From NCBI GenBank assembly GCA_017541975.1, contig JAFXYB010000029.1, positions 1 to 64,000 on the forward strand: DNA of 64,000 bases, written 5' to 3'. Origin of the DNA: a bacterium. GTDB lineage: Bacteria > Bacillota_I > Bacilli_A > Izemoplasmatales > UBA1188. Positions within the stretch are counted from its first letter, which is position 1; every line of letters starts with the position of its first letter. Both the position numbers and the translations under genes were made by a program. Under the pieces are notes generated by a model. That model was not told the DNA's origin. It did no database searches and worked only from the letters and a program-made list of their open reading frames with translations. Positions 1,099-4,672 of the stretch are shown piece by piece.

Positions 1099-1131
1099 AC
1101 ACAACAAAATCTAAATTTACAGGAGGAAACC

Positions 1132-2283
1132 ATTATATCTTATATCGTACTGAACATGAAAAAATATCCGCAAGGAGATATTGCCAAAATCGCTTTGGAA
1201 AATGAACGGCAAGAGGGCTACGTTCGTATCGGAAAAGAAACCATCGACGCGAGCCGCACAAAGAATAACTATCACATGATCCCACCGCCCGACATCGGCT
1301 ATGCGAAGTTTATCGACCAAAGGATCAGGCAAGCAGGCGTGAAACGGAAAGTCAAAGACGACGCGATCAAAATGGTATCGTTCGTGATGACGTCGGATAA
1401 AGACTTCTTCGACGGTATGCCGCAGGAAGCCGAACGTGCTTTCTTTACCGATTGCGTGAATTTCGTCAAGAAGAGATACGGCGAAGATAATATCATATCC
1501 GCCGTTGTCCACAAGGACGAAACAACACCGCACCTGCATATCAACTTCGTACCGATCACCCCCGACAACCGTTTGAGCGCCAAATACTACTTTGACGGGA
1601 AATTAGCGGAATTACAGACCGCCGTTTACGCAGAAGTCGGTAAGAAGTGGGGGTTATCCCGCGGCAAAGTCGGAAGCGCCGCCAAACACGTCGATCCGAA
1701 AACCTACAACAAAGTCGTAAAACAAGCGACAGCCGATGCACGAGCCGAGAACGAGAACTTAAAAGAAGCCAACGCCGATATGATAAAACGCCTTGACAAA
1801 ACCTTGCAAGAAGTCAACGACGCAACAACCGAACGAGATAAACTCATCGCCGAGCGAGATAAGGAAGCGAATTACAATCAGGCGTTAAAAGACGCAAAAG
1901 ACGGTAAAATCGCCCGCGGCAAGAAAGAGTTAAAAGAACAAGTGATTGCTCTAACCGCAGAGAACAAACGGCTTGAAAAAGAAAATTCTATTCTCGCCAA
2001 AGACAACGGTGACTTGTTCAAAGAATACCAAAAAGAAAAGGCAAACGGTCAAAAAGCGGAAGTTGCTAAAAAGGCAATGTTCGCCGTGAGAGAACACGAG
2101 CCTGAAGCGTATGCAAGAACATTCTTCAAAGCGACGAGCATATTACAACCATTTATCGAACTGTTTTCCGCGCCTATACCCCTGCCGAGAAATCGTTTAA
2201 GAGAGATTGAGCGTGAGATTGAAGAAGAAAAGCGGCAAGAACAAACGTTTACATCCACGCGGTCGTGGAGCAAAGCGGATTAA
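1132..2283 (+). CDS. MobV-family plasmid mobilization relaxase
   Basis: Relaxase that would nick oriT and covalently lead a single DNA strand into a recipient using a helper conjugation machine. The N-terminal region (YIVLNMKKYPQG) resembles the start of MobV/Pre proteins, and the metal-binding motif HxDExxPHLH is present as HKDETTPHLHINF about 130 residues in. After roughly residue 200 the protein becomes a long charged coiled coil, as in this family. AGGAGG at 1121-1126 points to ATT at 1132 (or ATA at 1135) as the start, because family similarity begins exactly there. No ATG, GTG or TTG occurs at the right distance, and the in-frame ATG at 931 would add residues translated from a folded leader. 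With ATT the product is 383 aa, within the usual family range. GC-rich codons set it apart from the host genes. Confidence 0.85.
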   Translation: MISYIVLNMKKYPQGDIAKIALENERQEGYVRIGKETIDASRTKNNYHMIPPPDIGYAKFIDQRIRQAGVKRKVKDDAIKMVSFVMTSDKDFFDGMPQEAERAFFTDCVNFVKKRYGEDNIISAVVHKDETTPHLHINFVPITPDNRLSAKYYFDGKLAELQTAVYAEVGKKWGLSRGKVGSAAKHVDPKTYNKVVKQATADARAENENLKEANADMIKRLDKTLQEVNDATTERDKLIAERDKEANYNQALKDAKDGKIARGKKELKEQVIALTAENKRLEKENSILAKDNGDLFKEYQKEKANGQKAEVAKKAMFAVREHEPEAYARTFFKATSILQPFIELFSAPIPLPRNRLREIEREIEEEKRQEQTFTSTRSWSKAD

Positions 2284-2380
2284 AACCGAATATTACAACT
2301 GAATATCATAAAACCGGCTATTGCACGAAGGTCGGGTTTATCTTCTGATGGATTTATTATATATTTTTCTCATAAACTCC

Positions 2381-2409
2381 TTGACAAAATTGTGTTAATA
2401 CGATATAAT
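2381..2409 (+). promoter_or_regulatory. Consensus promoter for the small RHH-like gene
   Basis: TTGACA at 2381-2386 and TATAAT at 2404-2409 are 17 bp apart, a perfect consensus. It drives the 67-aa gene starting at 2441 and probably the recombinase downstream. Confidence 0.75.
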
Positions 2410-2440
2410 ATTTAACAGTAAACTTGCGAGGTGGATTTTA

Positions 2441-2644
2441 ATGAGAACGCCGACATCGGTAATCAATAAAAGATATGAAGATAAACATAAGGAAGAAAGA
2501 AAAGCCAAGAGTTTGGTATGGGGAACGAGTATGCCGCGAAAGAAAGCGGAAGAAATAAACGAATTCTTAAAAAAAAGAAACTTATCGAAAGTTCAACTGA
2601 TCGAAGCCGGATATGAGGCATTAAAAAACAATACAACTGAATAA
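2441..2644 (+). CDS. Small ribbon-helix-helix-like protein, 67 aa
   Basis: A highly charged 67-residue protein. Residues about 27-62 read as a short strand (SLVWGTSMP) followed by two helices (KKAEEINEFLKKRN and SKVQLIEAGYEALK), the layout of CopG/Arc-type DNA-binding proteins. GCGAGGTGG lies seven bases before the ATG, and a perfect promoter lies just upstream. Its place between relaxase and recombinase suggests a repressor or accessory factor of the element. The specific role is inference; no enzymatic motif is present. Confidence 0.6.
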   Translation: MRTPTSVINKRYEDKHKEERKAKSLVWGTSMPRKKAEEINEFLKKRNLSKVQLIEAGYEALKNNTTE

Positions 2645-2730
2645 TCGCTCTTACCCCTTCTTACCTTTCCTTTTCGTGTCGAGGTCAAAAAATCATATAG
2701 AAGCGCCTCGGCTTCAAAAAGGAGATTATC

Positions 2731-2979
2731 ATTATTAAAGCACAAAGTAAACCAACAGCATCAAGTTTAATCAATTATTACGAACAACCCGACGGCTCGC
2801 TTACGAGAATTCGGGAAAAAGTCATCGGCAATACGGTTTATATCATCATTGCGAGGCAAAAACCGAATGCCAAAGAGACGGCGTTTGACATTACAAAAAG
2901 GCTGATCGAGCAGAATGCAGACAGCCTCATCAACACGGAACCGCTTGGGAGTTGCAATTCGGGAGGTAATAAACAATGA
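2731..2979 (+). CDS. TnpW-like small protein translationally coupled to the recombinase, ATT start
   Basis: An 82-residue frame with content such as IGNTVYIIIARQ and FDITKRLIEQN, resembling the small TnpW-type ORFs found before TnpX-like recombinases in Clostridia. It has no conventional start codon. AAGGAG at 2719-2724 is followed six bases later by ATT ATT (2731, 2734), so ATT is the likely start. Its TGA stop (2977-2979) overlaps the ATG of the recombinase (2976-2978), which supports genuine translation and coupling. Composition matches the rest of the element. The molecular function of this family is not established. Confidence 0.6.
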   Translation: MIKAQSKPTASSLINYYEQPDGSLTRIREKVIGNTVYIIIARQKPNAKETAFDITKRLIEQNADSLINTEPLGSCNSGGNKQ

Positions 2980-4628
2980 ATTTGCAACTACAACAAAACA
3001 AACATAAAAGAACAAAGAACGCGGAAGAACAATGGACGGCACTCTATTGTAGGCTCAGTTGCGACGACGATCTCGCCGGAGACAGCAACAGTATCAAGAA
3101 TCAGAAGATGTTATTGAAGCAATATACCGACGAACATCGACTGAAAAATATCCGATACTACGTTGACGACGGGTTTTCGGGGAGCAATTTTGACCGACCT
3201 GACTTCAAAAGAATGCTTGCGGACATCGACGACGGACTCATCTCCACCGTGGTAGTCAAGGATATGTCCCGATTTGGGAGAGATCACATTCTCGTGGGAT
3301 ATTACACAAAGTATTACCTACCCGAAGCGGACGTAAGGTTTATCGCCATCTACGACCAAGTGGACAGTGAAACCAATCCCGACGACGACATCACGCCTTT
3401 CAAGAACATTCTCAACGAGATGTACGCAAAGGACTGTTCGAGAAAGATACGGGCGGTCGTAAAAGCGAAAGGCAACGCCGGAAAACATCTTACTACCATT
3501 CCCCCGCTCGGATACATCAAGGATCCGGACGATAAAGAGAAATGGATCGTAGACGAAGAAGGTGCGGCTATCGTCAGAGAGATATTCAGTCTATGTGTTA
3601 AGGGATATGGTCCGACGCAGATCGCAAGAATATTGACGGAGAACGGAGTAGAAACGCCAACGGTCTATGCCAAGAGAAAAGGTTATTCGTCCAGGATGAT
3701 AGATTCAGATGATATAGACATTTGGGCTACGCATAGCATCACCCGAATTCTTGCTGATATGCAGTATCTCGGACACACTGTTAATTTCAAGACTTATAAA
3801 AAATCATATAAGTCAAGACGAAAACTCGAAGCACCAAAAGAAGACTGGGTGATCTTTGAAAACACGCAAGAGCCAATCATTGACAAGGAAACGTTCGATA
3901 TTGTTCAAAAAATCAGAGAAAGCCGTCGTCGCCCGACGGAAATGGGCGAAATGAGTGTGCTGTCCGGAATGCTTTACTGCGCCGACTGCGGACAGAAAAT
4001 GTATCTCTGCCGTTGTACGACAATGAAACAAGCGGAATACTTCAACTGTTCGTCCTATCGTAAGAAAAAGAAGCGGACTTGTTCATCCCACCAAATCACC
4101 GTCCATGCGGTAACAGATATGATTAAGGATGACATTCGGTACACAATACGGTTCGCGCAAGAAAACAAGGAAGAGTTTTTAGAACTGTTAAAGCGCCGTA
4201 GCGACGCCAAAACGAAACGAGAACTCAACCAATCTTTGAAAGAGGTTGCGGAGATGGAAGCGAGAATAAGAGAACTCGACAGAATCATCCAAAGCCTGTA
4301 TGAAGATAAAGTCGCCGGTAAACTCTCCGAAGAACGCTACTTTAAGATGAGCGACAACTATGAAGCCGAGCAAGCGGAATTAAAGGAAAAGGTCGAAAAA
4401 TTCAAAGGCAGTATCGACCACGCCAAGAGCAAGATGGACGACATTTCAAAGTTTATCTCTCTCGTGGACAAATACAGTGATTTTGAAGAACTGACACCGG
4501 AAATCCTGCGAGCGTTCATAGACAAGGTGTTGATCTACGAAAAGCAGAAAGTTGACGGACACTACAGACACACAATAGAAATCATTTACAACTTTGTCGG
4601 TGCCGTTGAAATCCCCGACTTCGACTAA
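2976..4628 (+). CDS. Large serine recombinase (TnpX/integrase type)
   Basis: Site-specific recombinase that would excise and integrate the element. The N-terminal catalytic domain carries YCRLS with the nucleophile Ser28, SIKNQ near residue 44, DDGFSG, and VVKDMSRFGRD with the conserved Arg. A 'recombinase' domain follows (GYIKD, RILTENGVETPT), then a zinc ribbon with CADCGQKMYLC and further Cys at about residues 350 and 365, a long coiled coil (about 395-500) and a C-terminal tail. The 550-aa length is normal for large serine recombinases. The start is fixed by the ATGA overlap with the upstream small ORF and GGGAGG at 2960-2965. Its attachment sites were not identified. Confidence 0.93.
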   Translation: MNLQLQQNKHKRTKNAEEQWTALYCRLSCDDDLAGDSNSIKNQKMLLKQYTDEHRLKNIRYYVDDGFSGSNFDRPDFKRMLADIDDGLISTVVVKDMSRFGRDHILVGYYTKYYLPEADVRFIAIYDQVDSETNPDDDITPFKNILNEMYAKDCSRKIRAVVKAKGNAGKHLTTIPPLGYIKDPDDKEKWIVDEEGAAIVREIFSLCVKGYGPTQIARILTENGVETPTVYAKRKGYSSRMIDSDDIDIWATHSITRILADMQYLGHTVNFKTYKKSYKSRRKLEAPKEDWVIFENTQEPIIDKETFDIVQKIRESRRRPTEMGEMSVLSGMLYCADCGQKMYLCRCTTMKQAEYFNCSSYRKKKKRTCSSHQITVHAVTDMIKDDIRYTIRFAQENKEEFLELLKRRSDAKTKRELNQSLKEVAEMEARIRELDRIIQSLYEDKVAGKLSEERYFKMSDNYEAEQAELKEKVEKFKGSIDHAKSKMDDISKFISLVDKYSDFEELTPEILRAFIDKVLIYEKQKVDGHYRHTIEIIYNFVGAVEIPDFD

Positions 4629-4637
4629 AATAACCAA

Positions 4638-4672
4638 GAGAAAAGGCGTGGCATCACGCCACGCCTTTTCTC
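4638..4672 (+). terminator. Strong 15-bp hairpin after the recombinase
   Basis: GAGAAAAGGCGTGGC (4638-4652) pairs perfectly with 4658-4672 around the loop ATCAC. It lies nine bases after the recombinase stop. There is no T run beyond it, but the stem itself ends in TTTTCTC. It is the last GC-rich structure of the element; a second short inverted pair, TTACCG/CGGTAA, follows near 4685-4713. Confidence 0.65.

Follow-up and report, generated by a model that had tools for sequence, protein, structure and literature searches.

Known systems and layout of the element

Tn4451 and Tn4453 carry a serine recombinase, the MobV relaxase TnpZ, and TnpW. The motif I histidine is the nucleophile in MobM of pMV158. 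Initiation at isoleucine codons is known from infC, the gene of IF3, which starts at AUU, AUC or AUA in E. coli, Streptomyces and S. aureus, and from IS911 orfB, which starts at AUU. Together with pcnB, sigR and the S. aureus genes ccpN/cvfC1, infC provides a precedent for weak starts that limit synthesis. To our knowledge, few bacterial starts at AUA, AUU or AUC (ATA, ATT or ATC in DNA; hereafter AUH) have been well characterized.

The window, that is, the whole 64-kb stretch of DNA analysed here, starts at base 1 of contig C13 in a 1.18-Mb, 82.5%-complete genome, so the left end of the element described below may be absent. Its features are as follows.

990-1002 and 1086-1098, no strand: arms of a long inverted repeat (13/13 paired) just upstream of the relaxase Shine-Dalgarno; putative oriT region, from its position beside the MobV gene
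1121-1126, + strand: Shine-Dalgarno AGGAGG of the relaxase, read from the sequence
1135-1137, + strand: ATA, at which the MobV relaxase starts; non-canonical and conserved in the aligned homologue column
1135-2283, + strand: MobV-family relaxase, 382 aa from the ATA start (PF01076, E=1.1e-45; NF041497 MobV, E=1.4e-49)
2441-2644, + strand: small conserved ORF of 67 aa that starts at an ordinary ATG, located between the relaxase and TnpW-like genes
2719-2724, + strand: Shine-Dalgarno AAGGAG of the TnpW-like ORF, read from the sequence
2734-2736, + strand: ATT, 9 nt from the Shine-Dalgarno, the most probable start of the TnpW-like ORF (ATT, ATA or ACG at 7-9 nt in homologues)
2734-2979, + strand: TnpW-like small protein of 81 aa (PF14202 TnpW, 19.0 bits; dN<dS)
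2976-4628, + strand: large serine recombinase (Resolvase, Recombinase, Zn ribbon, DUF4368) with an ordinary ATG and GGGAGG at 2961
4638-4672, no strand: 15-bp perfect hairpin, terminator-like, after the recombinase

The presence of a MobV relaxase and a large serine recombinase in one element is the gene content expected of a Tn4451-like element and, judged by that content, this is an integrative mobilizable element. The small TnpW-like ORF is joined to the recombinase by ATGA, as proposed in the first-pass annotation, with its TGA (2977-2979) overlapping the ATG at 2976. Genes for tRNAs (Leu, Ser, Glu, Arg) are found close to several related elements (loci L002-L053), a hint of tRNA-targeted integration in some of these elements.

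Start codon of the relaxase

A scan of GTDB contigs yielded seven loci related to this element, and searches at the level of order and class yielded many more, most of them in metagenome-assembled genomes. Start codons were called in two ways, by a rule combining the energy and distance of the Shine-Dalgarno and by visual inspection of alignments. The calling rule and the scans were devised after the pattern had been noticed, and only the later searches, which yielded sequence L203, postdate it. Among 100 distinct MobV sequences, the rule-based survey assigned AUH starts to 44 (29 ATA, 10 ATT and 5 ATC), ATG to 50 and TTG to three, leaving three with no call. The motif AGGAGG was present in 37 of the 44 AUH sequences, and in 28 it lay exactly 8 nt ahead of the codon.

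The first-pass annotation had proposed that the relaxase and the small ORF both start at ATT behind a strong Shine-Dalgarno, with no ATG, GTG or TTG there. The sequence agrees as to the Shine-Dalgarnos and the missing canonical codons, and for the relaxase none of the three occurs in the window at start distance from AGGAGG. A non-canonical relaxase start also stands, but the exact codon does not: ATA at 1135, 8 nt from AGGAGG, replaces ATT at 1132, 5 nt from it. The latter was ruled out by its variable column, in which homologues display ATT, ACT, AAA, AAC, AAT, TTT, TCT, AGT, ACA, GAA, GCA or ATC. Meanwhile, in the aligned N-termini the column of 1135 is almost always ATA, ATT or ATC and, within the clade described below, never ATG. 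An assembly error at the start codon is contradicted by the same pattern in dozens of genomes.

If the codon were instead an internal isoleucine, the protein would start further upstream, either at a canonical codon or through a frameshift fusion. An isoleucine residue would likewise produce AUH and not AUG, and upstream of the codon the window's reading frame has no stop for about 70 codons and includes a GTG at 931. This reading is nevertheless very improbable, and for most members the sequences already contradict it. In 14 of the 44 genes an in-frame stop is found 4-5 codons upstream of AUH (in seven, the nearest is 4 codons away), and ATG, GTG and TTG are all absent between the in-frame stop and AUH in 28. 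Conserved residues upstream of the start, which would have spoken for a longer protein, were looked for in the homologues and are lacking; even the directly preceding codon is not conserved. The same observations rule out GTG 931 as the relaxase start.

The opposite alternative, a start at the internal ATG at 1156 (residue 8), draws on the presence of this ATG in 41 of 42 clade members, and annotation programs may choose it. It is equally hard to credit, and we ruled it out, since this ATG lies about 29 nt from the Shine-Dalgarno and residues 2-7 are conserved at the protein level while their codons change synonymously: Ser2 is encoded by AGC, AGT, TCA, TCT, TCG or TCC, thus by both AGY and TCN, and Tyr3 by TAT or TAC. 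Furthermore, in the alignment the ATG at which other MobV relaxases start falls on residue 1. The in-frame stops close upstream and the protein-level conservation right after the codon mark AUH as the start, and comparison of the sequences thus shows the conserved codon to be the true start of the relaxase.

A deep clade of relaxases that avoid ATG

The window relaxase is one of 42 distinct relaxases that form a clade with support of 100/99 and branches adding up to 11.8 changes per site. The start column of this clade holds ATA in 26, ATT in 10, ATC in five, TTG in one (L042) and ATG in none, that is, AUH in 41 of 42. The tree was built from 94 rows with the start columns excluded. A first tree also had 42 clade rows; in the second, the short fragment L080 (ATA) and five long-branch rows were dropped and L203 (ATA) was added. 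The sole new clade member from the later searches, L203 is counted within the 42 and confirms the pattern once. The start column of the clade has undergone at least 10 codon changes. Outside the clade, ATG is the start of nearly all MobV relaxases from the same order and class. ATA is used as well by a small group (L082-L084) that is separate from the clade and sits beside the ATG relative L079. As compared across these sequences, non-AUG relaxase starts have been maintained throughout a deep clade.

It could be argued that these codons are genuine starts but merely tolerated: little relaxase would be needed, AUG would have been lost once and never regained, and the start would play no regulatory role. 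One main origin could indeed be inherited, a relaxed need for expression could partly account for non-AUG starts, and genome data alone reveal no function. Against this stand the at least 10 changes within the column, none of them to ATG over 11.8 changes per site, though each AUH codon is one step from ATG. A third-position G is found nearby in the same relaxases, ending 6 of 37 Val5 codons and 15 of 41 Lys10 codons. The second, separate AUA group and the similar type of start in TnpW also weigh against it, and we consider mere tolerance unlikely. A stronger Shine-Dalgarno that compensates for the weak codon is unsupported as well, since the predicted pairing is no stronger in AUH relaxases than in their ATG relatives (median -10.3 vs -12.7 kcal/mol).

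The nearest copies of the relaxase are found in metagenome genomes of Clostridia and Oscillospiraceae (72-82% identity), and 100 genomes related to that of the window yielded no match, which suggests that the relaxase element has moved between distant hosts. With a single relaxase protein as query, no relatives were found in viral contigs; a profile search there returned two distant ones, of which one (L125) starts at TTG. MobV relatives from plasmids and phages are about 30% identical, and the copies inspected have ATG or TTG starts. One relaxase within the ATG-type, H-type clade, L062 (around 3369), is a single case of an apparent ATC start, with no in-frame canonical start upstream.

Motif I of the AUH relaxases

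The window relaxase passes the curated cut-offs of both Mob_Pre (PF01076) and NF041497 MobV. In all 44 AUH sequences, the H of the motif I HxxR is replaced by E (ENER/ETER vs HNER/HHER). The curated models do not demand this histidine. Most ATG-type MobV relatives carry H at this position. Nevertheless, E is also present in relatives without AUH starts, namely L079 and L093 (ATG) and L125 and L042 (TTG). Among the sequences found later, E is present in L203, which belongs to the clade, and the H-type sequences whose start could be called use ATG, TTG or GTG. AUH starts are known from no more than two separate groups, each of E-type; the singleton L062 (ATC) is H-type. Since there are just these two groups, the link between E in motif I and an AUH start is an association and not a cause. 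With E replacing the motif I histidine, the nicking chemistry of the AUH relaxases may differ.

The TnpW-like gene

The second gene has a comparable start. Its 81-codon frame lacks a canonical start: no ATG, GTG or TTG occurs at start distance, and no canonical-start ORF of at least 40 aa is listed in that frame. Comparative evidence strongly favours the non-canonical start claimed for this ORF in the first-pass annotation, with ATT at 2734 in the window and ATT, ATA or ACG in relatives. An alternative ATT at 2731 lies 6 nt from AAGGAG; the homologues favour 2734 as the most likely start, with less certainty than for the relaxase. Two shortened relatives (L021 and L022) possibly start at TTG. 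Because TnpW-like relatives also use ACG, these data argue for a weak near-cognate codon, rather than an isoleucine codon as such, as the property that has been kept.

The window copy scores 19.0 bits against the TnpW profile, below the cut-off of 25, and the homologue L016 reaches 31.2 bits. dN was lower than dS in every pair for which dS could be computed (e.g. 0.04 vs 0.37 between the window and L004), which excludes six pairs with L054 or L055. The TnpW-like ORF is thus under purifying selection.

Gene specificity and initiator tRNAs

A codon-agnostic scan of the element loci for ORFs led by a Shine-Dalgarno but devoid of a canonical start recovered conserved families at the relaxase and the TnpW-like gene only; all other families were out-of-register or internal matches inside the relaxase. 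Non-canonical starts at these two genes exceed chance. The recombinases of these elements start at ATG, as does the 67-aa ORF, and an apparent ATA start of the recombinase in L022/L023 was ruled out by an ATG with a Shine-Dalgarno upstream. AUH starts throughout the host are likewise unsupported, as the element recombinases use ATG. With starts picked mechanically, a canonical codon behind a Shine-Dalgarno opens most of the 49 long ORFs in the 64-kb window; nine lack a strong Shine-Dalgarno.

An unusual initiator tRNA that reads AUA, AUU and AUC, whether from the host or the element, would account for isoleucine codons at the relaxase start. However, an initiator tRNA anticodon arm with CAU was detected in 29 of the 32 genomes bearing AUH-type relaxases. 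The exceptions are the 82.5%-complete window genome and G463, with no match, and G103, with only a non-CAU match. Inspection of five loci with non-CAU arm matches revealed no non-CAU initiator tRNA, and the tRNAs near the elements have ordinary anticodons; no altered or element-encoded initiator tRNA was found among these or in the host genomes searched. As TnpW also uses ACG and the recombinases use ATG, this is the least credible of the alternatives, with next to no chance of being correct. AUH starts are gene-specific, since the element recombinase uses ATG and the hosts have ordinary CAU initiator tRNAs.

A proposed role for weak initiation

Based on these findings, we consider it probable that conserved near-cognate starts (AUA at 1135; AUU at 2734) behind well-spaced Shine-Dalgarnos limit the synthesis of transfer proteins. 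The ordinary fMet-tRNA(CAU) would read these codons with a mismatch, and proofreading by IF3 would make initiation inefficient at both the relaxase and the TnpW codon. Weak initiation would in turn keep the relaxase, which nicks oriT, and TnpW at low levels. TnpW is perhaps translationally coupled to the recombinase, which perhaps would be limited too.

In S. aureus reporters, AUU and AUA starts with extended Shine-Dalgarnos yield about 10% of AUG output, and up to 30% for ccpN in rich medium (PMC13009471), and non-canonical starts are repressed by IF3 (PMC5472188). The earlier suggestion of deliberately low expression gains indirect support from this output of about 10-30%, from the avoidance of AUG across a deep clade and from the ATG kept by the recombinase. 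As more than 40 distinct relatives avoid AUG and use AUA, AUU or AUC instead, transfer is possibly kept low at translation. More tentatively, and with rather more doubt than conviction, the near-cognate starts of the relaxase and TnpW might form a dedicated translational governor throughout a clade of integrative mobilizable elements, such that mobilization follows host initiation fidelity (IF3 level, growth state).

These findings have implications for gene annotation, as gene finders limited to ATG, GTG and TTG mis-start or miss such genes. The more than 40 distinct AUH relaxases offer a large natural set for testing selection on weak initiation, and the clade points to start-codon choice as a control point of horizontal gene transfer.

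Comparison with known systems

We found no earlier report of non-canonical relaxase starts in the open-access papers searched. In gene content, the element resembles Tn4451/Tn4453, with a MobV relaxase, a TnpW-like protein and a large serine recombinase. IS911 orfB is also a mobile-element protein made from an AUU start, but it is a transposase frame tied to frameshifting and no relaxase.

Like the relaxase, infC has an AUH start behind a Shine-Dalgarno, and its initiation is weak and discriminated against by IF3; infC, however, serves housekeeping autoregulation, whereas the relaxase is a transfer gene of a mobile element without known feedback. The infC of the window genome (L009, G000:C6) itself has an apparent ATT start behind AGAGGTG, likely a native AUU start in the same host. 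In Streptomyces, the GTC start of sigR is a non-canonical start that restrains a potent protein (PMC5472188); the codon is a different one, and the effect of IF3, measured for sigR, is inferred for the relaxase. S. aureus ccpN (AUA) and cvfC1 (AUU) likewise have conserved AUA/AUU starts behind strong Shine-Dalgarnos (PMC13009471). Those are chromosomal genes, whereas the relaxase clade is mobile and all three AUH codons interchange within it.
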